A stretch of 64,000 bases of DNA from Streptomyces asoensis (GTDB lineage: Bacteria; Actinomycetota; Actinomycetes; Streptomycetales; Streptomycetaceae): contig NZ_BNEB01000005.1 of the NCBI RefSeq assembly GCF_016860545.1, forward strand, positions 2,046,001-2,110,000, in the 5' to 3' direction. Within the stretch, counting starts at the first letter, position 1. Each line of letters opens with the position of its first letter. Positions 47,840 through 62,335 of the stretch are shown piece by piece. Made by a program: the position numbers and the translations under genes. The notes beneath the pieces are model-generated. The model was given only the letters and a program-made list of their open reading frames with translations. It did not search any database and was not told the origin of the DNA.

Positions 47840-49369
47840 ATGGCAGACGACTACCTCGTACGCATCGGCAAGCTCATCCGTGACGCCCGGCAGCATCGAG
47901 GCTGGACACAGACGCAGCTCGCCGAGGCGCTCGGAACCAGCCAGAGTGCGGTCAACCGCATCGAGCGGGGCAACCAGAACATCAGCCTTGAGATGATCGC
48001 CCGCATCGGTGAGGCGCTGGACAGCGAGATCGTCTCGCTCGGCTACGCGGGTCCGATGCATCTGCGGGTGGTGGGGGGTCGCCGCCTCTCCGGCGCGATC
48101 GACGTGAAGACCAGCAAGAACGCGTGCGTGGCACTGCTGTGCGCCTCACTGCTCAACCAGGGGCGCACGGTGCTGCGCCGGGTCGCGCGGATCGAGGAGG
48201 TCTACCGGCTCCTCGAGGTGCTCAACTCCATCGGCGTACGCACCCGCTGGATCAACGACGGCGTCGACCTGGAGCTCGTCCCGCCGGCCCGGCTGGACAT
48301 GGCGGCGATCGACGCCGAGGCAGCCGTGCGCACCCGGTCCATCATCATGTTCCTCGGGCCGCTGCTGCACCGCATGAACCACTTCAAGCTGCCGTACGCC
48401 GGCGGCTGCGACCTCGGCACCCGCACCATCGAGCCGCACATGATCGCGCTGCGCCGGTTCGGTCTCGAGGTGGCGGCCACGGAAGGGCAGTACCACGCCG
48501 TGGTCGACCCCTCCGTCCGCCCGGACCGGCCGATCGTGCTGACCGAGCGCGGGGACACCGTCACCGAGAACGCGCTGCTGGCGGCCGCCCGGCACGACGG
48601 CGTGACCGTCATCCGCAACGCCTCCTCCAACTACATGGTCCAGGACCTGTGCTTCTTCCTTGAGGCGCTCGGCGTGCGGGTGGAGGGCATCGGCACCACC
48701 ACGCTCACCGTGCACGGCGTGCCCGACATCGACGTGGACGTGGACTACTCGCCCTCCGAGGACCCGGTCGAGGCGATGAGCCTGCTGGCCGCCGCCGTCG
48801 TCACGGAGTCGGAGCTGACGGTGCGCCGGGTGCCCGTCGAGTTCCTCGAGATCGAGCTTGCGGTCCTGGAGGAGATGGGCCTCGACCACGACCGCACACC
48901 GGAGTACCCGGCCGACAACGGCCGCACGCGGCTGGTCGACCTCACCGTCCGGCCCTCCAAGCTGGAGGCGCCGATCGACAAGATCCACCCGATGCCGTTC
49001 CCCGGCCTGAACATCGACAACGTGCCCTTCTTCGCGGCCATCGCGGCCGTCGCCCAGGGCAAGACCCTCATCCACGACTGGGTCTACGACAACCGCGCGA
49101 TCTACCTGACGGACCTGAACCGCCTCGGCGGCCGGCTCCAGCTCCTCGACCCGCACCGGGTGCTGGTCGAGGGACCGACGCGCTGGCGTGCCGCCGAGAT
49201 GATGTGCCCGCCCGCCCTGCGCCCCGCGGTGGTCGTCCTGCTGGCGATGATGGCGGCCGAGGGCACCTCGGTGCTGCGCAACGTGTACGTCATCAACCGC
49301 GGCTACGAGGACCTGGCCGAACGCCTGAACTCCATCGGCGCCCAGATCGAGATCTTCCGGGACATCTGA
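47840..49369 (+). CDS. murA2: UDP-GlcNAc 1-carboxyvinyltransferase-like protein with N-terminal HTH
   Basis: The 509-residue protein fuses an XRE-type HTH (residues 6-60, LIRDARQHRGWTQTQLAEAL, TSQSAVNRIERG) to an EPSP/MurA-type domain (about 75-509). In MurA the enzyme transfers enolpyruvate to UDP-GlcNAc for peptidoglycan. The Lys-Asn pair is kept (K93-N94 in TSKNACVALL). The loop Cys is residue 190 in GGCDLGTRTIEPH; the usual continuation is close to G-x-R-P-V-D, so this loop has diverged while keeping Cys and Arg. From memory S. coelicolor has this as a second MurA. It may be an enzyme, a regulator, or both. Confidence 0.85.
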   Translation: MADDYLVRIGKLIRDARQHRGWTQTQLAEALGTSQSAVNRIERGNQNISLEMIARIGEALDSEIVSLGYAGPMHLRVVGGRRLSGAIDVKTSKNACVALLCASLLNQGRTVLRRVARIEEVYRLLEVLNSIGVRTRWINDGVDLELVPPARLDMAAIDAEAAVRTRSIIMFLGPLLHRMNHFKLPYAGGCDLGTRTIEPHMIALRRFGLEVAATEGQYHAVVDPSVRPDRPIVLTERGDTVTENALLAAARHDGVTVIRNASSNYMVQDLCFFLEALGVRVEGIGTTTLTVHGVPDIDVDVDYSPSEDPVEAMSLLAAAVVTESELTVRRVPVEFLEIELAVLEEMGLDHDRTPEYPADNGRTRLVDLTVRPSKLEAPIDKIHPMPFPGLNIDNVPFFAAIAAVAQGKTLIHDWVYDNRAIYLTDLNRLGGRLQLLDPHRVLVEGPTRWRAAEMMCPPALRPAVVVLLAMMAAEGTSVLRNVYVINRGYEDLAERLNSIGAQIEIFRDI

Positions 49370-49416: not shown

Positions 49417-49462
49417 TCCATCGTGTGCGACCGGGCCGGGGTGATCACCTATCTTGGCGGCT

Positions 49463-49858
49463 ATGCAGTCCTACACGATCGGCCAGGCGGCCCGTCTGCT
49501 CGGGGTGAGTCCGGACACCGCGCGGCGGTGGGCGGACGCGGGCCGGGTGGCCACGCACCGGGACGAGGCCGGGCGACGCCTCGTCGACGGCAGGGACCTG
49601 GCCGCCTTCTCGGTGGAACTGGCCAGGAGCGGCGGCGGCGAGGAGGGCACCTCCTACACCTCGGTCCGCAACGCCTTCCCCGGCATCGTCACGGCCGTGA
49701 AGCTCGGCGATGTCGCCGCCCAGGTGGAGATCCAGGCCGGCCCGCACCGGCTGGTGTCCCTGCTGACGCGGGAGGCCGTGGAGGAACTGGGCCTGGAGGT
49801 CGGCGTGGAGGCCACCGCCCGGGTGAAGTCGACCAGCGTGCACATCGACCGGGCCTGA
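49463..49858 (+). CDS. HTH-TOBE molybdate-responsive regulator
   Basis: The 131-residue protein joins a MerR/excisionase-like HTH (residues 1-55, YTIGQAARLLGVSPDTARRWADAGR) to a Mop/TOBE domain (about 65-131, RNAFPGIVTAVKLGDVAAQVEI, VEATARVKSTSVHI). TOBE/Mop folds bind molybdate or tungstate. The gene is divergent in role from modABC but lies 0.7 kb upstream, so control of molybdate uptake is likely. The ATG at 49463 is chosen; a TTG three codons earlier is possible. A good ribosome site is not seen, so the mRNA may be leaderless. Confidence 0.82.
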   Translation: MQSYTIGQAARLLGVSPDTARRWADAGRVATHRDEAGRRLVDGRDLAAFSVELARSGGGEEGTSYTSVRNAFPGIVTAVKLGDVAAQVEIQAGPHRLVSLLTREAVEELGLEVGVEATARVKSTSVHIDRA

Positions 49859-49901
49859 CCGCGCAAGGGCCCGCCGGCCGGGTGTCGGCTCGTTGCGGCG
49901 G

Positions 49902-50414
49902 TCAGTGCGCGGCCCACGTCGTGTAGCCGCCGTCGACGCGGATCGTGCCGATGCCGCTGACGTGCCGGGCGCCGCAGCGGTCCTGCGGCACGACGAGCAT
50001 GGGACCGCTCCGGTCGAGCGGGGTGTCGTCCATGGTGACCGCCAGTAGGACGGGAGTCCGGCCGAAGTCGGGGTCGATCTCCGCCCAGGACAGCAGGGCG
50101 TGATGGCCGTCCGCGCCGGACACCGCGATCAGGAAACGCAGACGGTCCTTGCGCCGCGCCGGGTCGAACACGGGACCCGCGTCCGCGAGGACCTCGTGCA
50201 GCAGCGGTCCGGTGAAACGGTGGTGCCGGACGCCGCTGGTGGCGCACTCGAAGCTGACGTAGGCCGCATGCTGGGGCCGGTCCAGCAGGTCGGACACGGT
50301 CAGCCGGGCCGGGCGGGCCAGATCCCCGGCGAGGACGAACCACGCCTGCGGCCCGGCGGGGGAAGCAGTCGTCGGACCGGACTCCGTACCAGGGAACGCG
50401 AAGGGCTGGGTCAC
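49902..50414 (-). CDS. Molybdopterin-binding oxidoreductase domain protein
   Basis: The 170-residue protein corresponds to the sulfite-oxidase-type molybdopterin-binding fold (LARPARLTVSDLLDRPQ, YVSFECATSG, WAEIDPDFG, GPMLVVPQDRCGARHV). It is much shorter than full sulfite oxidases and has no dimerisation domain or Tat signal. A Cys is present in FECATSG, where the family's molybdenum-ligand Cys lies. It is probably a small Moco-binding or Moco-like domain protein. The GTG at 50414 has AGGAGG 8 bases upstream. It is divergent from modA, which fits a molybdenum-linked locus. Confidence 0.75.
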   Translation of the reverse strand: MTQPFAFPGTESGPTTASPAGPQAWFVLAGDLARPARLTVSDLLDRPQHAAYVSFECATSGVRHHRFTGPLLHEVLADAGPVFDPARRKDRLRFLIAVSGADGHHALLSWAEIDPDFGRTPVLLAVTMDDTPLDRSGPMLVVPQDRCGARHVSGIGTIRVDGGYTTWAAH

Positions 50415-50580
50415 GGGCTCCACCTCCTGCACGACCGTACCCGGACCGGCCTGCCGTGCAAACGCACATGCCAGACGAACCGTTCTCGATCACGGCTCAT
50501 GCAAAGCGACAGGAGACTTTCACCTCGCATCTGCGGCAGCATTATGATCAGGCGTCCGTCAGACCTGAGGGAGTGGACCC

Positions 50581-51414
50581 GTGATGACCCGTACCGCGCA
50601 CCGGACCGGCCGACCGATGCAGGTGGCGGCCCTGGGAGCCACCGCGCTGCTGACCCTGGGCGCCTGTTCGTCCTCCGACGACTCCTCCTCGGCGAAGCCG
50701 GACGGCTCCGCCTCCTCCGCGTCCGCCCCGGGCAAGCTCTCCGGCACGGTGACCGTGTTCGCCGCGGCCTCGCTGAAGGAGAGCTTCACGGCGCTGGGCG
50801 AGGAGTTCGAGAAGGCGCACCCGGGGACGAAGGTCACCTTCAGCTTCGGCGGCAGCGACTCCCTGGCCGCGAGCATCACCGGCGGCGCCCCGGCCGACGT
50901 GTTCGCCTCCGCCAGCCCCAAGACGATGAAGATCGTCACGGATGCCGGCGACGCCTCGGGCACGCCCGCCACCTTCGTCCGCAACCAGCTGGAGATCGCC
51001 ACCCTGCCGGGCAACCCCGACAAGGTCTCCACCTTGAAGGACCTCACCGGATCGAAACTGAAGGTCGTCCTCTGCGACAGGACGGTGCCCTGCGGCGCCG
51101 CCGCGCAGAAGGCCCTCGACGCGGCCGGGCTGAAGCTCACCCCCGTCTCCTACGAGCAGGACGTCAAGGCCGCCCTGACGAAGGTGGAGCTGAAGGAGGC
51201 CGACGCGGCGCTCGTCTACAAGACCGATGTGCGCGCCGCGGGTGACAAGGTGGAGGGCGTGGAGTTCCCCGAGTCGGCCGAAGCCGTCAACGACTACCCG
51301 ATCGTCCGGCTCAAGGACGCGCGCAACGCCGACGCCGCGAAGGCGTTCATCGCGCTGGTCAGGTCCGCCGAGGGCCAGAAGGTCCTGACCGGGGCCGGGT
51401 TCCTGCGGCCGTGA
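50581..51414 (+). CDS. modA: Molybdate-binding lipoprotein ModA
   Basis: The 277-residue binding protein has lipobox LTLGAC (Cys about residue 23) and a Ser-rich linker. The core has the ModA blocks GTVTVFAAASLKESFTALG, FGGSDSLAASITGGAPADVF and KTDVRAAGDKVEGVEFPE. It captures molybdate or tungstate at the cell surface for ModBC. The GTG at 50581 has GGGAG about 7 bases upstream; the ATG one codon later is an alternative. Its stop overlaps the modB start. Confidence 0.9.
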   Translation: MMTRTAHRTGRPMQVAALGATALLTLGACSSSDDSSSAKPDGSASSASAPGKLSGTVTVFAAASLKESFTALGEEFEKAHPGTKVTFSFGGSDSLAASITGGAPADVFASASPKTMKIVTDAGDASGTPATFVRNQLEIATLPGNPDKVSTLKDLTGSKLKVVLCDRTVPCGAAAQKALDAAGLKLTPVSYEQDVKAALTKVELKEADAALVYKTDVRAAGDKVEGVEFPESAEAVNDYPIVRLKDARNADAAKAFIALVRSAEGQKVLTGAGFLRP

Positions 51415-52288
51415 CCCCGCTCGACGAGACCGGCGCCGCGGCCGACGGCGAGGGCGGACACGAGGCCGACGCCCTCCAGGACGGTCCGCGGGGCCGGCGT
51501 GCCCGGATCCGGACGCGGGGAGCACCGCTCCCGCTGCTGGTGCCCGCGCTCGTCGGTGTGGCGTTCCTGACCGTGCCGCTCGTCGCCCTGCTCGTGCGGG
51601 CCCCGTGGCGCAGCCTGCCCGGGCTGCTGACCAGTGCGCAGGTGTGGGAGGCACTGCGGCTGTCCCTGGTCTGCGCCACCGCCGCCACGGCCGTGAGCCT
51701 GGTCGTGGGCGTGCCGCTGGCCTGGCTGCTGGCACGGGTCGAGTTCCCCGGGCGCGGCCTGGTCAGGGCCCTGGTGACCCTGCCGCTCGTGCTGCCGCCG
51801 GTGGTCGGCGGTGTGGCCCTGCTGATGGCCCTCGGCCGCAACGGCATCGTCGGGACGTGGCTCGACTCCTCGTTCGGCGTCACGCTTCCGTTCACCACGG
51901 CAGGGGTCGTCGTCGCCGAGGCGTTCGTCGCCATGCCGTTCCTCGTCATCAGCGTCGAGGGCACCCTGCGGGCCGCCGACCCGCGTTACGAGGAGGCGGC
52001 GGCCACCCTCGGCGCCTCCCGCTTCACCGCGTTCCGCCGCGTCACGCTGCCGCTGATCGCGCCGGGCATCGCGGCGGGCGCGGTGCTGGCATGGGCGCGC
52101 GCGCTCGGCGAGTTCGGCGCGACGATCACCTTCGCGGGGAACTTCCCCGGCCGCACCCAGACCATGCCGCTGGCCGTGTACCTGGCCCTTCAGAGCGACC
52201 CGGAGGCCGCCATCGCCCTGAGTCTCGTCCTGCTCGCCGTATCGGTGGCGGTACTCGCGGGCCTGCGCGACCGCTGGATGACGGCCCG

Positions 52289-52292
<4 letters not shown>
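51411..52292 (+). CDS. modB: Molybdate ABC permease ModB
   Basis: The 293-residue permease has a hydrophilic N-terminal stretch of about 40 residues and then about six helices, with the ModB segment LPLVLPPVVGGVALLMALGRNG. The ATPase-contact loop is EEAAATLGASRFTAFRRVTLP and is followed by WARALGEFGATITFAGN. The GTG start overlaps the modA stop and its own stop overlaps modC (ATGA), so the three genes are translationally coupled. Confidence 0.92.
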
Positions 52293-53482
<1,190 letters not shown>

Positions 53483-54224: not shown

Positions 54225-54428
54225 ATGTGTTCTCACCAGCTCCCCGGTACGCACACCGACGACCGCTCGACACCTCTCGCGCACATCGTCGCCGCCCACC
54301 CCGAGCAGGGCTGGAACCTGCTGTGCGACGGCACGATCGTCTTCGACGACTCCGGCGAGCTGCGGCCCGACGGCCGTGTGGTGGGCCCGCACCGGGTGAC
54401 CGCCGCACAGCTGGCCGTCGCGGCCTGA
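54225..54428 (+). CDS. DUF5999-like small protein
   Basis: The 67-residue protein begins MCSHQLPGTHTDD and has the block HPEQGWNLLCDGTIVFDDSGELRPDGR, matching small DUF5999 proteins of streptomycetes. No signal peptide is seen. Two Cys (residues 2 and about 34) and a His are available for metal binding but this is not shown. GGAGG lies about 7 bases before the ATG. It is convergent with the RidA gene, 16 bases away. Confidence 0.78.
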   Translation: MCSHQLPGTHTDDRSTPLAHIVAAHPEQGWNLLCDGTIVFDDSGELRPDGRVVGPHRVTAAQLAVAA

Positions 54429-54444
54429 GCCCGCCCGGCGCCGG

Positions 54445-54846
54445 TCACCGGTCCAGTACGGCGAACCCGTCCAGTTCGACGAGGGCCTGCTCGTCCCAGA
54501 GCCGTACGATCCCGACGACCGCCATCGCCGGATAGTCGCGTCCCGCCGACTCCCGCCAGATGGCGCCCAGTTCGGCGGCGTGGTCGCGGTACGCGGCGAC
54601 GTCCGTGACATGGACGGTGACGCGGGCCAGGTCGCCGGCGGTGCCGCCCGCCGCCCTCAGCGCGGCCAGCAGATTGGCCAGCGCCCGGGCGAACTGCTCC
54701 GGGAGCGTGCTGCCCACGACCTTTCCGTCCGCGTCCAGTGCGGTCTGGCCGGCGAGGAACACGACGCGCCCGCCGGTGGCGACGACGGCGTGGGAGAAGC
54801 CGGTGGCCGGGGAGAGCCCGGGCGGGTTGACGCGTTCGATGCTCAT
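54445..54846 (-). CDS. RidA family enamine/imine deaminase
   Basis: The 133-residue protein has the RidA/YjgF signatures SHAVVATGGRVVFLAGQTALDADGK and TVHVTDVAAYRDH, and the late segment MAVVGIVRLWDEQALVELDGFAVL. RidA proteins hydrolyse enamines and imines to ketones and ammonia. The usual catalytic Arg near residue 105 is represented by the Arg in IVRLWDE, one of the family variants. Its start overlaps the stop of the acyl-CoA dehydrogenase by 4 bases, so it is coupled to the aromatic-acid pathway. That fits an amino-substituted substrate. Confidence 0.88.
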   Translation of the reverse strand: MSIERVNPPGLSPATGFSHAVVATGGRVVFLAGQTALDADGKVVGSTLPEQFARALANLLAALRAAGGTAGDLARVTVHVTDVAAYRDHAAELGAIWRESAGRDYPAMAVVGIVRLWDEQALVELDGFAVLDR

Positions 54847-56048
54847 ATGGCCTCCAGATCCCCCGGTTCGGCGTACAACTGCTTGGCGATGATGCCCCGT
54901 TGGACTTCGCTCGCGCCTTCGTAGATCCGTGGTGCGCGCACCTCCCGGTAGAGGTGTTCGAGCAGGTGGCCGCGTTGCAACGCCCGTGCGCCGTGCAGTT
55001 GGACGGCCCGGTCGACGACGTACTGGGCGGCCTCGGTGGCGAACAGCTTGGCCATCGCGGCACGTTTGCGGACATCGGCCGCGCCGCTGTCGTACGCGCT
55101 CGCCGCGGCCTGCACCATCAGCCGCGCGGCCTCCGTGCGCAGAGCCATCTCGGCCACCTGGTGAGCGACCGCCTGGAGGTCGCTCAGCCTGCCGCCGAAC
55201 GCGTCCCTGCGGGCGGTGTGGTCGAGGGTCGCGTCGAGGGCGGCCTGGGCCATCCCGACGGCGAAGGCGCCGACGCTGGGGCGGAACAGGTCGAGGGTGC
55301 CCATGGCGACCCGGAAGCCGCGGTCGGGCTCGCCGAGCACGTCGTCCGCGGTGACCGGTACGGCGTCGAAGGTCAGGGTGCCGATGGGGTGCGGGGAGAG
55401 CATGTCGAGGGCGGAGCCGGTGAGGCCCGGGCGGTCGGCGGGCACGAGGAACGCGGTCACGCCCCGGGCGCCGGCCCCCGGGGTGGTGCGGGCGAAGACG
55501 GTGTAGAAGTCGGCCCCGGGAGCGTTGGAGATCCAGCACTTCTCCCCGGACAGCCGCCAACGCCGTTCTCCGGCCGAGCCGTTGCTCCCGCCCGACCCGT
55601 CACCTCGTCCGCCCGGCCCGTCACCTCGGCCGCCCGGCCCGTCGGGTCGCGCGGAGAGCGACAGGGCCGCCGCGTCGGATCCCGCGCCGGGCTCGCTCAG
55701 CGCGAACGCGGCGATCGCGGTGCCGTCCGCGACCCGGGGAAGCCACCGCCGCCGCTGGGCGGGTGTGCCGTGGGCGTGGACCGGATGGGCGCCCAGCCCT
55801 TGCAGCGCGAGCGCGGTCTCCGCCTCGGTGCAGGCGTAGGCGAGGGACTCCCGCATCAGACAGAGGCCGACGGCGCCGGAGGTGAACAGCCGGGCCAGCA
55901 GCCCGAGTCGGCCGAGTTCCGCGACGAGGGGACGGTTGACGTACCCCGGTTCCCCCTTCTCGGCCAGCGGGCGCAGCCGTTGAGCGGCCATGGCACGCAG
56001 CTCGGCGCACCAGGCGGTCTGTGCCGGTTCGAGTGAGAATGCGGGCAT
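54843..56048 (-). CDS. Acyl-CoA dehydrogenase
   Basis: The 401-residue flavoprotein has the family blocks FALSEPGAGSDAAALS, KCWISNAPGADFYTVFART and the C-terminal QLHGARALQRGHLLEHLYREVRAPRIYEGASEVQRG. It oxidises an acyl-CoA thioester at the alpha-beta bond using FAD. It overlaps RidA and is divergent from the aryl-CoA ligase. The ATG at 56048 has GAGGAG about 10 bases upstream. A GTG at 56165 would add 39 residues, including a Gln-Ala-Arg repeat coded by a tandem 9-bp repeat; that start is less likely. Confidence 0.88.
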   Translation of the reverse strand: MPAFSLEPAQTAWCAELRAMAAQRLRPLAEKGEPGYVNRPLVAELGRLGLLARLFTSGAVGLCLMRESLAYACTEAETALALQGLGAHPVHAHGTPAQRRRWLPRVADGTAIAAFALSEPGAGSDAAALSLSARPDGPGGRGDGPGGRGDGSGGSNGSAGERRWRLSGEKCWISNAPGADFYTVFARTTPGAGARGVTAFLVPADRPGLTGSALDMLSPHPIGTLTFDAVPVTADDVLGEPDRGFRVAMGTLDLFRPSVGAFAVGMAQAALDATLDHTARRDAFGGRLSDLQAVAHQVAEMALRTEAARLMVQAAASAYDSGAADVRKRAAMAKLFATEAAQYVVDRAVQLHGARALQRGHLLEHLYREVRAPRIYEGASEVQRGIIAKQLYAEPGDLEAI

Positions 56049-56060
56049 CGCCTGTCTCCT

Positions 56061-56114
56061 CTGCCATACCTGCCTTGCCTGCCTTGCCTGCCTTGCCTGC
56101 TGTACCTGCTGCGC
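56061..56114 (-). repeat. Six tandem 9-bp units upstream of the acyl-CoA dehydrogenase
   Basis: The units are CTGCCATAC, three CTGCCTTGC, CTGCTGTAC and CTGCTGCGC. They lie just before the ribosome site of the dehydrogenase and in frame with a possible longer N-terminus (Gln-Ala-Arg repeats). Copy-number change would alter the leader or N-terminus without a frameshift. Confidence 0.8.
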
Positions 56115-56271
56115 CTGCGGCCCGGGCAGGCGCCGACCCCGTCCGCCTCCGACATTATCGCGCACCGTTGACTGTCGTCACCAAGGCGCTACGCTCGTTG
56201 CGCGACCCCATGACGACACCAGCCCGGGCAGCCCGGCCGGACGGTCCATCCAGGCAAGGGGGCGAACGCCC

Positions 56272-57966
56272 ATGAACGTCTCGGCCCACGTCGACACCTT
56301 CGCGCGCGACCACCTTCCGCCGCCCGGTCAGTGGCCGGGTCTCACCTTCGATCTGCCCGAACTGCGCTACCCGGACCGGGTGAACTGCGCCGCCGAGCTG
56401 CTCGACCGCGCCGCCGCGGAGCGGCCCGTGTTCCACACCGGCACCGGCCCGTCCTGGACGTACGGGGAGCTGCGCGCCCGCGTGGACCGGATAGCGCATC
56501 TGCTGAGCGGCGAGCTCGGGGTCGTCCCCGGCAACCGCGTGCTGCTGCGCGGCCCCACCACGCCCTGGCTCGCGGCCTGCTGGCTGGCGGTGCTCAAGGC
56601 GGGCGCGATCGCGGTGACCGTGCTGGCCCAGCAGCGGCCGAACGAGCTGCGCACCATGTGCGAGATCGCGCGCGTCGGGCACGCCCTGTGCGACGTCCGG
56701 GCCGTCGACGACCTCGTCAAGGCGGAGGTGCCCGGGCTGCGCGTCACGACGTACGGCGGCGACGCGCCCGACGACCTGCTGCTGCGCCCGGCCCCGCAGG
56801 AGCCGTACGAGGCCGTCGGGACCGCCTCCGACGACGTGGCGCTGATCGCGTTCACCTCCGGCACCACCGGCCGCCCCAAGGGCTGTCTGCACTTCCACCG
56901 GGACGTGCTGGCGATCGCCGACACCTTCTCCCGGCATGTGCTGAAGCCGCTGCCGGACGATGTCTTCGCGGGCAGTCCCCCGCTCGGCTTCACCTTCGGC
57001 CTCGGCGGACTGGTCGTGTTCCCGATGCGGGCCGGCGCCAGCGCGCTGCTGCTCGAACAGGCGGGCCCGCGGCAGCTGTTGCCCGCCATCGCCGAGCACC
57101 GGGTGAGCGTGCTGTTCACCGCGCCCACCGCCTACCGCGCGATGCTCGACGACCTGGGCGACCCGGACGGCCCCGGTGTGCCCGACGTCTCCTCGCTGCG
57201 CCGCTGTGTCTCCGCCGGGGAGAACCTGCCCGCGGCGACCTGGCGGGCCTGGCACGAGCGGACGGGACTGCGCCTGATCAACGGCATCGGGGCCACCGAA
57301 CTGCTGCACATCTTCGTCTCGGCCGCCGACGAGCACATCCGGCCCGGCACGACCGGCGTCCCCGTGCCCGGCTGGCAGGCGCGCGTGCAGGACGCGCACG
57401 GCGAGCCGGTGCCCGACGGCGAGCCCGGACTGCTCGCCGTGCGCGGCCCGGTCGGCTGCCGCTACCTGGCCGACCCCCGCCAGCGGCAGTACGTGCGTGA
57501 CGGCTGGAACATCACCGGCGACACCTACGTCCGCGAGTCCGACGGCTACTTCCGGTACGTCGCCCGGGCCGACGACATGATCATCTCGGCCGGGTACAAC
57601 ATCGCGGGTCCCGAGGTCGAGGAGGCCCTGCTGCGCCACCCGGAGGTGGTGGAGGCGGCGGTCGTGGGCCGTCCGGACGCGCGCCGGGGGCAGGTGGTCG
57701 TCGCGTTCGCCGTCCTGCGGGGCGGTGCCCGGCAGGACGCCGAGGCCCTGCGCGGGTTCCTGCGGCAGGAGTTGGCGCCCTACAAGTGCCCGCGCGAGTT
57801 CGTCTTCCTGGACGCCCTGCCGCGCACGGCGACCGGGAAGCTCCAGCGGTTCAGGCTGCGCGCCGAAGGCGGCACGCCCGGCAGCCGCGCCCCGAGCCGC
57901 GCCACACGCCCCGGCCCCGGCCCCGGCGATGACACCGATCGTGACACCGATGGTGACCAGCAGTGA
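56272..57966 (+). CDS. Aryl-CoA ligase (2-aminobenzoate/benzoate-CoA ligase type)
   Basis: The 564-residue adenylate-forming enzyme has the AMP-binding motif FTSGTTGRPKGCLHF at about residues 194-208, the ADDMIISAGYNIAG motif and the late catalytic Lys523 in PRTATGKLQRF. It matches benzoate/2-aminobenzoate-CoA ligases better than fatty-acid ligases, with HRDVLAIADTFSRHVLKP as a family block. It would activate an aromatic acid to its CoA thioester. The Pro/Asp-rich tail after about residue 530 is extra. It is followed by the PaaX-type regulator after 15 bases, forming a two-gene unit. Confidence 0.87.
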   Translation: MNVSAHVDTFARDHLPPPGQWPGLTFDLPELRYPDRVNCAAELLDRAAAERPVFHTGTGPSWTYGELRARVDRIAHLLSGELGVVPGNRVLLRGPTTPWLAACWLAVLKAGAIAVTVLAQQRPNELRTMCEIARVGHALCDVRAVDDLVKAEVPGLRVTTYGGDAPDDLLLRPAPQEPYEAVGTASDDVALIAFTSGTTGRPKGCLHFHRDVLAIADTFSRHVLKPLPDDVFAGSPPLGFTFGLGGLVVFPMRAGASALLLEQAGPRQLLPAIAEHRVSVLFTAPTAYRAMLDDLGDPDGPGVPDVSSLRRCVSAGENLPAATWRAWHERTGLRLINGIGATELLHIFVSAADEHIRPGTTGVPVPGWQARVQDAHGEPVPDGEPGLLAVRGPVGCRYLADPRQRQYVRDGWNITGDTYVRESDGYFRYVARADDMIISAGYNIAGPEVEEALLRHPEVVEAAVVGRPDARRGQVVVAFAVLRGGARQDAEALRGFLRQELAPYKCPREFVFLDALPRTATGKLQRFRLRAEGGTPGSRAPSRATRPGPGPGDDTDRDTDGDQQ

Positions 57967-57981
57967 TACCGACGACCTAAG

Positions 57982-58809
57982 ATGATCAACGTGTCCGATC
58001 AGCCCGCACCCCGGTCTCTCATCGTCACGCTCTACGGCGCGTACGGCCGCTTCGCGCCGGGCCCGGTGCCCGTCGCCGAGCTGATCCGGCTGCTCGCCGC
58101 GGTCGGTGTCGACGCTCCCTCCGTGCGCTCCTCGGTCTCCCGGCTCAAGCGGCGCGGACTGCTGCTGCCGGCCCGCACGGCACAGGGCGCGGCGGGATAT
58201 GAACTGTCGGACGAGGCAAGGCAGTTGCTGGAGGACGGCGACCGGCGCATCTACGCCACGGCCCCGCCCGCGGACGAGGGCTGGGTGCTGGCGGTGTTCT
58301 CCGTGCCGGAGTCGGAGCGGCAGAAGCGGCACGTGCTGCGCTCGCGGCTCGCGGGCCTGGGGTTCGGCACCGCGGCCCCCGGCGTGTGGATCGCTCCGGC
58401 GCGTCTGCACGACGAGACCCGGCACACGCTGCGCCGGCTGCGTCTGGACCCGTACGTGGACCTGTTCCGGGGCGAGCACCTCGGGTTCTCGCCGACGGTG
58501 GAGTCCGTCGCCCGCTGGTGGGACCTGGCGGCCATCGCCAAGGAGCACGAGACCTTCCTCGACACCCACGCGCGGGTCCTGCACTCCTGGCGGCGGCGGA
58601 CGGACACCCCGCCCGAGGAGGCCTACCGGGACTACCTGCTCGCGCTGGACTCCTGGCGGCACCTGCCCTACACCGACCCCGGCCTGCCCGCCCGTCTCCT
58701 CCCCGAGGGCTGGCCCGGCACCCGTTCCGCCGCCGTCTTCCAGGAGCTGCACGACCGTCTGCGGGACGCGGGCGCCCGGTTCGCGGGCGTCACGGCGCCC
58801 GCGCCGTGA
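57982..58809 (+). CDS. PaaX family transcriptional regulator
   Basis: The 275-residue protein has an N-terminal winged HTH (about 10-75, SLIVTLYGAYGRFAPGPVPV, SSVSRLKRRGLLL) and the PaaX central and C-terminal domains (PPADEGWVLAVFSVPESERQ, RLRLDPYVDLFRGEHLGF). PaaX repressors sense aryl-CoA thioesters such as phenylacetyl-CoA. Here it probably senses the CoA ester made by the ligase just upstream and controls the whole island. A GTG three codons later is an alternative start. Its stop is 2 bases from the convergent monooxygenase stop. Confidence 0.88.
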   Translation: MINVSDQPAPRSLIVTLYGAYGRFAPGPVPVAELIRLLAAVGVDAPSVRSSVSRLKRRGLLLPARTAQGAAGYELSDEARQLLEDGDRRIYATAPPADEGWVLAVFSVPESERQKRHVLRSRLAGLGFGTAAPGVWIAPARLHDETRHTLRRLRLDPYVDLFRGEHLGFSPTVESVARWWDLAAIAKEHETFLDTHARVLHSWRRRTDTPPEEAYRDYLLALDSWRHLPYTDPGLPARLLPEGWPGTRSAAVFQELHDRLRDAGARFAGVTAPAP

Positions 58810-58810
58810 G

Positions 58811-61216
58811 TCACCCGGCCGGACCCGCGGCCGCCCGGCCCGCGCGCCGCGTCCGGGGCGCGTCGGTGCGGCCGGTGCGCGGGGGTCGGCTGCCCGCACG
58901 GTAGGGGGCGGGCCAGGGCGCGCCGGGCCCGGTGTAGCCCTGTTCGGCGGCCGCGTGCAGGGTCCAGTTCGGGTCGTACAGGTGCGGCCTGGCGAGCGCG
59001 CACAGGTCCGTACGGCCCGCCAGGATCAGTGAGTTGACGTCGTCCCAGGAGGAGATCGCGCCGACCGCGATGACGGGCACCCGCACCTCGTGGCGGATGC
59101 GGTCCGCGAAGGGGGTCTGGTACGAGCGCCCGTGGGCGGGCCGTTCCTCGGCCACCACCTGTCCGGTCGACACGTCGATCGCGTCGGCGCCGTGGGCGGC
59201 GAAGGCCCGGGCGATCTCCACGGCGTCGTCGGCCGACGTGCCGCCCGGGGCCCAGTCGGTGGCGGAGATGCGGACGGTCATCGGCCGTTCGGCCGGCCAC
59301 ACCGCGCGGACCGCGTCGAAGACCTCGAGCGGGAACCGCAGCCGCCGGGTGAGCGGGCCTCCGTAGGCGTCCGTGCGGTGGTTGGTGAGCGGGGAGAGGA
59401 ACCCGGAGAGCAGATAGCCGTGGGCGCAGTGCAGTTCGAGGAGGTCGAAGCCGGCCCGGGCGGCCCGCCGGGCGGCGTCGGCGAACTCGTGGCGCAGGTC
59501 GGTGAGCTGGGCCCGGGTGAGCGCCCGGGGCACGGGGCCGTCCGGTTTGTAGGGCAGCGAGGAGGCGGCCACGAGCGGCCAGTTGCCGTCGGGCAGCGGT
59601 TCGTCCATGCCCTCCCACATGAGCCTCGTCGAGCCCTTGCGCCCGCTGTGGCCGAGCTGGACGCCGATCGCGGTGCCCGGCGCCCGGTCGTGCACGAAGT
59701 CGGTGACGCGCCGCCAGGCGTCGCCCTGCCGGGCGGTCCACAGACCGGTGCAGCCGGGCGTGATGCGTCCGTGTGCCGACACGCACACCATCTCGGTCAT
59801 CACCAAGGCGGCCCCGCCGAGTGCGCGGGCGCCCAGATGGACGAGGTGGAAGTCGTCGGGCAGACCGTCGGTCGCCGAGTACATGTCCATGGGCGAGACG
59901 ACGACCCGGTTGCGCAGGGTCAGGCCGCGCAGGCGGAACGGGGTGAACATCGGGGGCGTGCCGGGCGGGCAGCCCGCCTCCCGCTCCACGGCGTCGGTGA
60001 AGCGCGGATCGCGCAGCCGCAGGTTGTCGTGGGTGACCCGGCGGCTGCGGGTGAGCAGGTTGAAGGCGAACCTGCGGGGCGGCTGGTCCCGGTAGAGGGC
60101 GAGGTTCTCGAACCACTCCAGGCTGGCCCGGGCGGCCCGTTGGGTGGAGGCGACGACCGGTCTGCGCTCCTCCTCGTAGGCGCTCAATGCCTCGCCCACG
60201 TCGTGGTGTTCGCCCAGACACGCGGTCAGGGCCAGCGCGTCCTCGACGGCGAGCTTGGTGCCGGAGCCGATGGAGAAGTGGGCGGTGTGGGCGGCGTCGC
60301 CGAGCAGGACGACGTTCCCGTGCGACCAGTGCTCGTTGACGACGGTGCGGAAGACGGTCCAGGCGGAGTTGTTCGACCGCAGCGGGCGTCCGCCGAGGGC
60401 GTCCGAGAAGATCTCGGCGCAGCGCTCCACGGACTCGCGCTCGTCCGATCCGTCGAAGCCGGCCGCCCGCCAGACCTCCTCCCGCATCTCGACGATCACC
60501 GTCGAGGCGTCGGCCGCGTAGGGGTAGCCGTGCAACTGGACGACGCCGTACGGGGTCTCGGCGATCTCGAAGCGGAAGGCGTCGAAGGCGAAGTCCGCGG
60601 CGAGCCAGATGTAGCGGCAGCGGTGGCCGCTCACCCGCGGGCGGAAGATCCCGGCGTACGCCTCACGGACGGCGCTGTGGACTCCGTCGGCGGCGACGAC
60701 GAGGTCGTACCCCTCGGCCAGCCGTGCGGGGTGGGGCGCTTCGGTGCGCAGGCGCAGGTCCACGCCGAGACGGCGGCAGCGTTCGTGCAGGATCTCCAGG
60801 AGCCGGCGCCGGCCGAGTGCGGCGAAGCCGTGGCCCGTGGAGGTGTGCCGGGTGCCGCGGCGCACGATGCCGATGTCGTCCCAGCGGACGAAGTCCCGCT
60901 GGAGGGCCGCGTAGACCTCCGGGTCGGCGTGTTCGATGCCGCCGAGGGTCTCGTCGGACAGGACGACTCCGAAGCCGAAGGTGTCGTCGGGGGCGTTGCG
61001 CTCCCAGAGGGTGATCTCCCGGGCGGGGTCGTCGCGTTTGAGCAGGGCCGCCGCGTAGAGACCGCCGGGGCCGCCGCCGACGACCGCGACCCGCAGGGGG
61101 GCGCCCGCCGGTCCGGGCGGCCGCGGACGCGGGGCGGCCGTTCCCGGTCCGCGGCCGGGCCGCTCCCCGGTGTGGGCTCCGGCCTGTGCGGACGAGACCC
61201 GCTCCCCGGCCGCCAC
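58811..61216 (-). CDS. Fused FAD monooxygenase / old-yellow-enzyme reductase (2-aminobenzoyl-CoA or salicylyl-CoA type)
   Basis: The 801-residue bifunctional flavoprotein has an FAD monooxygenase half (about 40-410) with VAVVGGGPGGLYAAALL and the late LLGDAAHTAHFSIGSGTKLAVEDA. An old-yellow-enzyme FMN reductase half follows (about 423-780) starting at MFTPFRLRGLTLRNRVVVSP, with VQLGHSGRKGS and the C-terminal barrel strands. This architecture is that of 2-aminobenzoyl-CoA monooxygenase/reductase, which hydroxylates and then dearomatises the ring; databases also call it salicylyl-CoA 5-hydroxylase/oxidoreductase. The GTG start lies 2 bases after the hydratase stop. Confidence 0.88.
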   Translation of the reverse strand: MAAGERVSSAQAGAHTGERPGRGPGTAAPRPRPPGPAGAPLRVAVVGGGPGGLYAAALLKRDDPAREITLWERNAPDDTFGFGVVLSDETLGGIEHADPEVYAALQRDFVRWDDIGIVRRGTRHTSTGHGFAALGRRRLLEILHERCRRLGVDLRLRTEAPHPARLAEGYDLVVAADGVHSAVREAYAGIFRPRVSGHRCRYIWLAADFAFDAFRFEIAETPYGVVQLHGYPYAADASTVIVEMREEVWRAAGFDGSDERESVERCAEIFSDALGGRPLRSNNSAWTVFRTVVNEHWSHGNVVLLGDAAHTAHFSIGSGTKLAVEDALALTACLGEHHDVGEALSAYEEERRPVVASTQRAARASLEWFENLALYRDQPPRRFAFNLLTRSRRVTHDNLRLRDPRFTDAVEREAGCPPGTPPMFTPFRLRGLTLRNRVVVSPMDMYSATDGLPDDFHLVHLGARALGGAALVMTEMVCVSAHGRITPGCTGLWTARQGDAWRRVTDFVHDRAPGTAIGVQLGHSGRKGSTRLMWEGMDEPLPDGNWPLVAASSLPYKPDGPVPRALTRAQLTDLRHEFADAARRAARAGFDLLELHCAHGYLLSGFLSPLTNHRTDAYGGPLTRRLRFPLEVFDAVRAVWPAERPMTVRISATDWAPGGTSADDAVEIARAFAAHGADAIDVSTGQVVAEERPAHGRSYQTPFADRIRHEVRVPVIAVGAISSWDDVNSLILAGRTDLCALARPHLYDPNWTLHAAAEQGYTGPGAPWPAPYRAGSRPPRTGRTDAPRTRRAGRAAAGPAG

Positions 61217-61218
61217 GC

Positions 61219-62046
61219 CTACCGTCCCCGCCACTTCACCGGGCGCTTCTGGGTGAACGCCGCGTGGAACTCGGCGTAGTCCTCGCCGTTCATCAGGAGG
61301 GCCTGGGTCGCCGCGTCCAGTTCCACGGCCGCCGCCAGGGGCATGTCCAGCTCGGCCGTCAGCAGGGCCTTGGTCTGCGCGTGGGCCAGGGCCGGGCCGT
61401 CGGCGAGCCGGCGGGCCAGCGCCTGTGCGGCCTCGTCGGCGCGGCCCTCGTCGGTGAGTTCGCTGATGAGGCCGATGCGCTCGGCCTCGGGGGCCCGGAC
61501 GGGTTCGCCGAGCATGAGCAGCCGGGTGGCGTGCCCGAGGCCCACGACGCGGGGCAGCAGGTAGGCGGCCCCCATGTCGCCCCCGGAGAGGCCGACGCGG
61601 GTGAAGAGGAACGCGAAGCGGGCGCTGGGGTCGGCGACCCGGAAGTCGGCGGCCAGGGCGAGGACCGCGCCGGCGCCCGCGGCGACGCCGTGCACGGCCG
61701 CGACGACCGGGAAGGGGCATTCCCGCACGGCCCGCACGACCTGGCCGGTCATCCGGTTGAAGTCCAGCAGGGTCGCGGTGTCCATGCCGAGGGTGGCGCC
61801 GATGATCTCGTCGACGTCACCGCCCGAGCAGAAGCCGCGCCCTTCGCCGGCCAGGACCAGGGCGCGGACCGACCGCTCCCGGGACAGTTCGGCCAGCAGG
61901 TCACGCAGGTCGGCGTAGGCGCCGAAGGTGAGGGCGTTGAGCTTCTGCGGACGCGCCAGGGTGACGGTCGCGACGCCGTCGGCGACGTCGACGCGCAGAT
62001 GGTGCCAGTCGGAGGTGCGGGCGGCGGAGCCGGTGAAGGGACTCAT
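61219..62046 (-). CDS. Enoyl-CoA hydratase/isomerase family protein
   Basis: The 275-residue crotonase-fold protein has GEGRGFCSGGDVDEI and the oxyanion-hole segment AAVHGVAAGAGAVLALAADFRVAD. The block FTRVGLSGGDMGAAYLLPRVVG resembles hydratases seen in CoA-dependent aromatic degradation. It is the first gene of a two-gene unit with the fused monooxygenase and probably acts on its dearomatised product. The ATG at 62046 has AGGAGG about 9 bases upstream; an in-frame GTG/ATG further up reads leader sequence. Confidence 0.88.
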   Translation of the reverse strand: MSPFTGSAARTSDWHHLRVDVADGVATVTLARPQKLNALTFGAYADLRDLLAELSRERSVRALVLAGEGRGFCSGGDVDEIIGATLGMDTATLLDFNRMTGQVVRAVRECPFPVVAAVHGVAAGAGAVLALAADFRVADPSARFAFLFTRVGLSGGDMGAAYLLPRVVGLGHATRLLMLGEPVRAPEAERIGLISELTDEGRADEAAQALARRLADGPALAHAQTKALLTAELDMPLAAAVELDAATQALLMNGEDYAEFHAAFTQKRPVKWRGR

Positions 62047-62335
62047 GAGGGCGGCCTCCTCGACGGTCGCCTCCGAAGTTATCACCTACTTCTGACCATC
62101 GTCACGAGTACGCGATAGAAGGGCCGGGAATCATCACCGTGTCACGGCGGGACATGGTCTCGTCACACACGTCACCGGTCGTCGATAGCGCGGTAACAAC
62201 GGGATCGGGTGCGGGAGGCCGGGCGTTGTGCCGGGTAAGCCGCCGGACAGGGGGCCGAAGGCCCCGGACGGTGTCCGCCGAGCGCCTGCGCCGGAAGCGC
62301 CGTACCATTCTCGAAATCGAAAGCAGGACCGTCCG

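Follow-up and report, generated by a model that had tools for sequence, protein, structure and literature searches.

A block of six genes at positions 54445-62046 of a 64,000-nucleotide stretch of the Streptomyces asoensis genome (contig NZ_BNEB01000005.1, positions 2,046,001 to 2,110,000; hereafter the window) was described in an initial annotation, made from the sequence alone, as a complete island for the coenzyme A (CoA)-dependent breakdown of an aromatic acid, with anthranilate as the best fit. A check of the open reading frames (ORFs) of the window reproduces the outer coordinates exactly and finds all six ORFs of the island (Table 1). The genes form three units, crotonase-fused flavoenzyme and acyl-CoA dehydrogenase-RidA on the reverse strand and ligase-PaaX-like regulator on the forward strand, and these are as tightly packed as that annotation had said. 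The dehydrogenase and RidA genes share 4 nt (ATGA), the gaps between the crotonase and fused genes and between the ligase and paaX genes are 2 nt and 15 nt, and the convergent paaX and fused genes have 1 nt between them. The GTG start of the fused enzyme was chosen in this analysis.

In 18/18 other Streptomyces genomes inspected over approximately 20 kb around the fused gene, all six genes recur with order and orientation unchanged, so the arrangement is more than chance. These genomes were a manual choice, distributed along the fused-gene score list below its first 30 rows, and are mostly represented by long contigs. Among 35 further genus-type loci (34 plus L010), 27 have all six genes and six of the other eight are truncated where the available sequence stops; L010 and L102 are without RidA. 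One locus, L071, carries the six genes in a different arrangement. The fused gene itself scores over the NF006101 cut-off in 212 of the 246 genomes sampled across the genus, and the named loci nearest to the window's fused protein, at up to 86% identity, are all Streptomyces. With the fused protein of locus L105 as the query in a draw across the phylum, 39/296 genomes, the window's genus included, matched at E 1e-100.

Table 1. Genes and predicted regulatory features of the island (window coordinates)
Feature	Position	Strand	Basis
RidA/YjgF-family protein, 133 aa	54445..54846	-	PF01042, 64 bits
Acyl-CoA dehydrogenase, 401 aa	54843..56048	-	PF00441, PF02770 and PF02771 over gathering
Predicted promoter of dehydrogenase-RidA unit, GTGACG-16-GATAAT	56154..56181	-	Sole promoter-like match in 54300-62300, 0.1 expected
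Predicted promoter of ligase-paaX unit, TTGACT-16-TACGCT	56168..56195	+	Layout in 48/48 divergent regions
Proposed PaaX-like operator 1, TGAC-N4-GTCA	56169..56180		Overlaps both -35 boxes
2-Aminobenzoate-type aryl-CoA ligase, 564 aa	56272..57966	+	PF00501 and PF13193; 55.4% to pAL1 ligase
PaaX-like transcriptional regulator, 275 aa	57982..58809	+	PF07848, PF20803 and PF08223 over gathering
2-Aminobenzoyl-CoA monooxygenase/reductase-like fused flavoenzyme, 801 aa from GTG	58811..61216	-	NF006101; PF01494 and PF00724
Crotonase-family protein, 275 aa	61219..62046	-	NF006107 over cut-off
Proposed PaaX-like operator 2, crotonase-fused promoter region	62093..62104		In 52/54 crotonase upstream regions

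Judged from homology and gene content, the island probably encodes an aerobic, CoA-dependent pathway for anthranilate (2-aminobenzoate) under the control of a PaaX-like regulator, and anthranilate is the best-supported of its possible substrates. The anthranilate-CoA route favored by the initial annotation thus stands as the best reading, given the place of the ligase in the clade of the pAL1 ligase, the presence of tryptophan 2,3-dioxygenase (TDO) and kynureninase genes together in the genome, and the lack of a gentisate dioxygenase match there. The pAL1 enzyme belongs to Arthrobacter sp. Rue61a, for which a CoA-dependent anthranilate route, encoded on pAL1 and on the chromosome, has been published; activity measurements and liquid chromatography-mass spectrometry of CoA esters verified two anthranilate-CoA ligases there (PMC3534580). 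The window ligase, which contains the PF00501 and PF13193 domains, scores 325 bits against TIGR02262, under the cut-off of 375. It is 55.4% identical to the pAL1 anthranilate-CoA ligase, 34.4-34.9% identical to two benzoate-CoA ligases, and 33.5% identical to the anthranilate-CoA ligase 4wv3. The ligase tree places it in a single clade together with the activity-tested pAL1 enzyme (PMC3534580) and with ligases that adjoin fused genes. Several benzoate ligases accept 2-aminobenzoate too, and BadA favors ortho-substituted substrates (PMC8388817).

The fused enzyme scores 1214 bits against NF006101 (cut-off 1078) and carries FAD_binding_3 (PF01494) and Oxidored_FMN (PF00724) domains in one chain; it is 62-63% identical to the pAL1 protein. 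Its FAD motif is intact, and so are the H/H/Y residues of its old yellow enzyme (OYE) half, which support a reductase function. The OYE Tyr and the first His are kept in 58/58 other members of the first tree that have the reductase half. Among the matches listed (60 of 184), no PDB entry spans both halves of the enzyme. On the homology of both proteins, which supports these two steps well, the ligase would form anthraniloyl-CoA, and the fused flavoenzyme would hydroxylate it at C5 and reduce the ring. The result would be 2-amino-5-oxocyclohex-1-ene-1-carbonyl-CoA, the compound given as the product of ligase and fused enzyme in PMC4539516. A 2-aminobenzoyl-CoA gene cluster was vital for anthranilate degradation during indole breakdown, as judged by proteomics and genetics, according to PMC6221969, which cites Qu et al. 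2017. Elsewhere in the same genome, on contig C2 (locus L129, 8337-9554), a free-standing 405-aa protein related to the monooxygenase half is encoded, with a score of 386 bits against NF006101; by eye, its gene has tyrosinase-like and terpene-synthase-like genes nearby and no CoA ligase in the 18.5-kb stretch.

Genes for forming anthranilate accompany some relatives of the fused gene. The anthranilate-forming gene aqdC1 adjoins such a relative in Rhodococcus BG43, and quinaldine-to-anthranilate genes accompany the one on pAL1 (PMC3534580). A pair of genes for a cyclase-family protein and a thiamine pyrophosphate (TPP)-binding enzyme, which from the annotations of L013 we read as an isatin hydrolase and an isatinate decarboxylase and hence as anthranilate-forming, is found no farther than 8 kb from the fused gene in 2/106 loci (L013 and L112). 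The pair also lies near the fused gene in 6/19 loci of a fresh set (L190, L192, L194, L195, L201 and L203). This set comprised 20 stretches, of which the 3.1-kb L183 was left out and 19 were compared, at laxer thresholds than those used for the first tree.

The RidA protein scores 64 bits against PF01042, where the cut-off is 27, and has PAM at the site of the PAR motif of the solved homologues 2cwj and 2dyy, so that Met replaces Arg. This Arg is missing from 45/45 genus homologues detected among 53 loci, and from 37/37 homologues detected outside the genus, which have Met (34), Leu (2) or Thr (1) in its place. In canonical RidA, a 2-imino acid deaminase, the Arg binds the substrate carboxylate; its loss is expected here because the carboxyl group of the proposed substrate is a CoA thioester. 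Of the 82 loci that have 6 kb on both sides, 68 have a RidA gene no more than 8 kb from the fused gene, alongside either of two types of lower pathway, suggesting that RidA acts directly after the fused enzyme. RidA would then hydrolyze the enamine to 2,5-dioxocyclohexane-1-carbonyl-CoA and ammonia. The acid of this thioester is C7H8O4, which fits the finding, in Rue61a cells on anthranilate, of CoA esters whose acids are C7H7NO3 and C7H8O4, the latter being tentatively assigned there as cyclohexanedione-carboxyl-CoA (PMC3534580).

The crotonase scores 390 bits against NF006107 (cut-off 330). Its solved full-length homologue, 3g64 (531 bits), is presumably a protein of Streptomyces coelicolor. 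Enoyl-CoA hydratase uses two catalytic Glu residues, and the aligned segment of the crotonase where these are expected (residues ~143-180) contains no Glu. Asp157, which aligns with the PD motif of PaaG, is kept in 53/53 genus homologues and in 14/16 other homologues detected, the remaining two having a Gly and an unreadable residue. Given the lack of the hydratase Glu residues and the presence of the PaaG-aligned Asp, the crotonase is more likely an isomerase or a ring-opening hydrolase than a hydratase. The dehydrogenase retains the Glu of its IYEG motif, which we take to be the catalytic residue, as do 47/47 readable genus homologues. In the proposed scheme, the single-Asp crotonase would open the beta-keto ring, and beta-oxidation of the open, 4-oxopimeloyl-CoA-like chain would begin with the acyl-CoA dehydrogenase.

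The PaaX-like protein has three PaaX Pfam domains over gathering, and its TIGR02277 score of 143.9 bits falls short of the equivalog cut-off of 264.55. The palindrome TGAC-N4-GTCA is probably its operator. Four copies occur in the window against 0.9 expected, a number reached in 3/100 shuffles, and two of them lie in promoter regions of the island. The palindrome is found in 48/48 divergent ligase/dehydrogenase regions of genus-type loci (0.04 regions expected from shuffles) and in 52/54 crotonase upstream regions (0.12 expected; L074 and L140 are without it), the window being included in both counts; as these regions are related sequences, the counts show conservation and not independence. 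Its arms supply both -35 boxes of the divergent region. On the ligase side, a -10-like hexamer follows at 16-18 nt in 48/48 regions, compared to 13% of random positions, and on the dehydrogenase side one is present in 27/48. Because the palindrome overlaps both -35 boxes, a repressor bound there would block the ligase and dehydrogenase units. By analogy with PaaX, the PaaX-like protein would bind TGAC-N4-GTCA over the -35 boxes and repress all three units until an aryl-CoA, most probably anthraniloyl-CoA, releases it. A longer form of the operator, TGACTGNCGTCAC, has four copies in the genome, the island's own included, and one of the others is near a LysR-type gene (by eye). Palindromes of the same form also occur near several non-Streptomyces clusters, with no estimate made of their chance rate.

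The genome has a probable source of anthranilate. On contig C3, a TDO gene (385 bits, just under the cut-off of 391; 279 bits with Pfam, over gathering) overlaps a kynureninase gene (260 bits, cut-off 246), and an alpha/beta hydrolase gene follows. The same TDO-kynureninase-hydrolase layout is found in S. roseosporus (PMC9058172). Given the overlap and the shared layout, anthranilate is probably made in this genome, and tryptophan, by way of these two enzymes, would be its probable main source. The link to tryptophan and kynurenine breakdown drawn in the initial annotation is, to that extent, supported. Matches to anthranilate dioxygenase in the genome are limited to two partial ones, covering positions 10-214 of 438, the better of which scores 94 bits. 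This dioxygenase was tried as a complementary marker in a set of 60 genomes of the genus, 29 without a strong fused match and 31 with a best E of 0, the window's own included, from which G028, G112, G119, G139, G194, G224 and G233 had been dropped for partial or split fused matches. The marker was rejected: 0/60 genomes score over the cut-off, and only G092, a genome without the fused gene, has a near full-length match (448 bits).

A salicylate route is the alternative that the initial annotation had kept beside anthranilate. The ligase would then form salicylyl-CoA, the fused enzyme would be a 5-hydroxylase, and gentisate would be cleaved by a gentisate dioxygenase in the Sdg manner. Such a route agrees with the NCBIfam name of NF006101, bifunctional salicylyl-CoA 5-hydroxylase/oxidoreductase, and with four loci (L105, L106, L115 and L118) in which the fused gene is accompanied by a fumarylacetoacetate hydrolase (FAH)-family gene and by a gene for a gentisate-dioxygenase-like protein (311-333 bits against TIGR02272, cut-off 442), but not by RidA. 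However, gentisate 1,2-dioxygenase has no match in the window's genome at E 1e-3, the RidA deaminase would be without a task, and the fused proteins of those four loci have lost the OYE Tyr (4/4) and the first His (3/4), both of which the window protein keeps. In addition, Arthrobacter Rue61a, with the same enzyme pair, uses anthranilate and not salicylate for growth (PMC3534580). The four loci look like candidates for a true salicylyl-CoA 5-hydroxylase branch, and the window protein does not appear to be of that sort. Salicylate thus stays on as a rival, although an improbable one. Across the 82 loci, 67 have RidA only, one has both RidA and the dioxygenase (L078, a 34% match), four have the dioxygenase only and ten have neither; without the genus-type loci (n = 37), the numbers are 26, 1, 4 and 6 (Fisher p 0.014, uncorrected for relatedness). 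Within the genus, the presence of the fused gene shows no link to gentisate dioxygenase: full-length matches to the latter occur in 7/31 genomes with the fused gene and 10/29 without, and all of them score below the cut-off.

Two other readings were weighed. Under the first of these, the true substrate would be a hydroxy-, methyl-, N-alkyl- or otherwise substituted anthranilate, derived from secondary metabolism or the environment, with the chemistry unchanged. The genus produces many anthranilate-derived products. Aryl-CoA ligases can also be broad (PMC8388817), but the presence of the fused gene in most of the sampled genus genomes suits a housekeeping substrate better, and we give this reading only a small chance. 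It is very improbable that the island is a PaaX-controlled phenylacetate- or benzoate-type aryl-CoA island with no relation to amino-aromatics. The PaaX-like regulator, the PaaG-like crotonase and the membership of the ligase in the benzoate-CoA-ligase family would fit such an island, but there is no PaaABCDE or Box gene among the six, the ligase is just 34-35% identical to the two benzoate ligases, and the fused enzyme belongs to the 2-aminobenzoyl-CoA/salicylyl-CoA enzyme family.

Several observations weigh against the anthranilate reading. Of the four gentisate-dioxygenase-type clusters, three (L105, L115 and L118) have ligases that are interspersed among the others adjoining fused genes. 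The comparison of phylogeny and active sites proposed in the initial annotation groups the ligase with the pAL1 enzyme and finds the fused OYE H/H/Y residues intact, but it contains no characterized salicylate enzyme; with no salicylate-CoA enzyme of that kind in it, the ligase tree alone cannot exclude salicylate. An isatin-hydrolase-like gene (54%; arylformamidase 27 bits) also accompanies the gentisate-type cluster L106, and such a gene alone is therefore no marker of anthranilate. Kynureninase is present in 31/31 genomes with the fused gene and in 24/29 without it; being near-universal in the genus, it discriminates little, and its co-occurrence was rejected as a test. The palindrome was not found in 17 kb around the TDO-kynureninase genes, and a transporter is absent among the six genes of the island. 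No RidA is found in the genus-type clusters L010 and L102 even with the threshold relaxed to E 1, and no short-chain dehydrogenase/reductase (SDR) gene was found beside the window genes or the genus-type clusters, in searches whose tblastn thresholds miss divergent RidA and SDR proteins.

The description of the island as complete is therefore not borne out. An SDR is present in the Proteobacterial and Deinococcus clusters and in some actinobacterial ones (Sciscionella and Geodermatophilus), and the window's genome has no close copy, its best match to the SDR of the Sciscionella cluster being 41% identical (116 bits). With the SDR absent from the island, the pathway would either be SDR-free or borrow an unlinked enzyme. 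A fuller version of the anthranilate reading, which we put forward tentatively and as possible rather than probable, would combine an SDR-free lower pathway, an Arg-less RidA acting as a CoA-ester-enamine deaminase, a single-Asp crotonase that opens the ring, a PaaX-like repressor that senses anthraniloyl-CoA, and a role for the whole as a general sink for kynurenine-derived anthranilate in the genus.

In the fresh set, a reductase residue is altered in 8/19 fused proteins, all of them 45-49% identical to the window protein. Four of these (L197, L198, L201 and L206) lie beside RidA, dehydrogenase and crotonase genes, L199 lies beside a dehydrogenase gene, and L200, L204 and L207 have no neighbor found; no fresh cluster has a gentisate-dioxygenase match closer than 7.3 kb (L201, 34%). 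Loss of the reductase site, which held as a marker of gentisate clusters in the first tree, was rejected as such on these eight proteins. Since altered residues occur beside RidA, dehydrogenase and crotonase genes, the loss is not diagnostic of salicylate and the test is suggestive only. These eight distant fused relatives (L197-L201, L204, L206 and L207) come from other genomes of the phylum, and L197, L200, L204 and L207 also have in-frame stops; the enzymes may have changed function or be in decay, or the assemblies may be poor.

The abm clusters of Azoarcus (Aromatoleum) evansii, reportedly described by Schuhle et al. in 2001, are said to comprise a ligase, a fused monooxygenase/reductase, beta-oxidation-type genes and RidA (as a "translation inhibitor"), along with a MarR regulator, an SDR and an ABC-transporter binding protein. 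By that account, the island shares the ligase, the fused enzyme, the beta-oxidation-type genes and RidA, whereas it has a PaaX-like regulator in place of MarR and neither an SDR nor an ABC-transporter binding protein. The A. evansii abm work is cited in PMC4539516 and PMC8388817. Clusters of Deinococcus, Sinorhizobium and Paracoccus (L013, L014 and L015) likewise keep fused enzyme, ligase, crotonase, dehydrogenase and RidA together, but they have SDR and MarR genes and one main direction of transcription. Rue61a, compared through pAL1, resembles the island in its ligase (55%), fused enzyme (62-63%), RidA and PaaX-family regulators. It differs in that cupin, FAH-family and TesB-type thioesterase genes replace the dehydrogenase and crotonase; this trio was not found beside genus-type clusters or among nearby ORFs of the window. 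Clusters of the pAL1 type, in which the fused enzyme is accompanied by a cupin and a TesB-type thioesterase and often by an FAH-family protein, make up L009 (7424-14337) and 19 more of the 106 loci. They mostly share the island's ligase and RidA and apparently have another lower pathway, of which we encountered no description.

In S. thermocarboxydus DF3-3, TDO, kynU and abmG were predicted in one genome (PMC9277890, 2022); this is annotation only, and the fused enzyme, RidA, crotonase and regulator are unnamed in the accessible part of that report. Our literature search, which left most subscription papers outside and so does not establish absence from print, returned no paper joining RidA with 2-aminobenzoyl-CoA, and anthraniloyl-CoA together with PaaX only for Rue61a. 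The earlier statement that no actinobacterial pathway with exactly this gene set had been described must thus be narrowed, given the published Rue61a route and the S. thermocarboxydus prediction, although the exact gene set does differ. We regard the island as a new form of a route already known elsewhere, with an Azoarcus-type gene set that lacks the SDR, stands under a PaaX-like regulator and is conserved across most sampled Streptomyces.

What becomes of kynureninase-derived anthranilate in Streptomyces matters for antibiotics made from kynurenine or anthranilate; the kynurenine supply of S. roseosporus, for instance, was engineered with the aim of a higher daptomycin titer (PMC9058172). 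With a conserved six-gene module and a predicted operator, the anthranilate sink becomes directly testable and removable. If the anthranilate reading is true, the salicylyl-CoA 5-hydroxylase name of NF006101, which matches most sampled genomes of the genus, would need correcting, a defined chemical task could be assigned to an unusual group of RidA proteins, and the crotonase, with a crystal structure already available for its close homologue 3g64, would gain a task too.

At lower coordinates than the island, the window contains one forward-strand ORF (47840-49369) with a helix-turn-helix-like N-terminus followed by an EPSP-synthase/MurA-like domain. Apparent molybdate uptake genes follow on the same strand (49454-53482), with ORFs for a MerR/TOBE-like regulator and ModA-, ModB- and ModC-like proteins; both assignments were made by eye.

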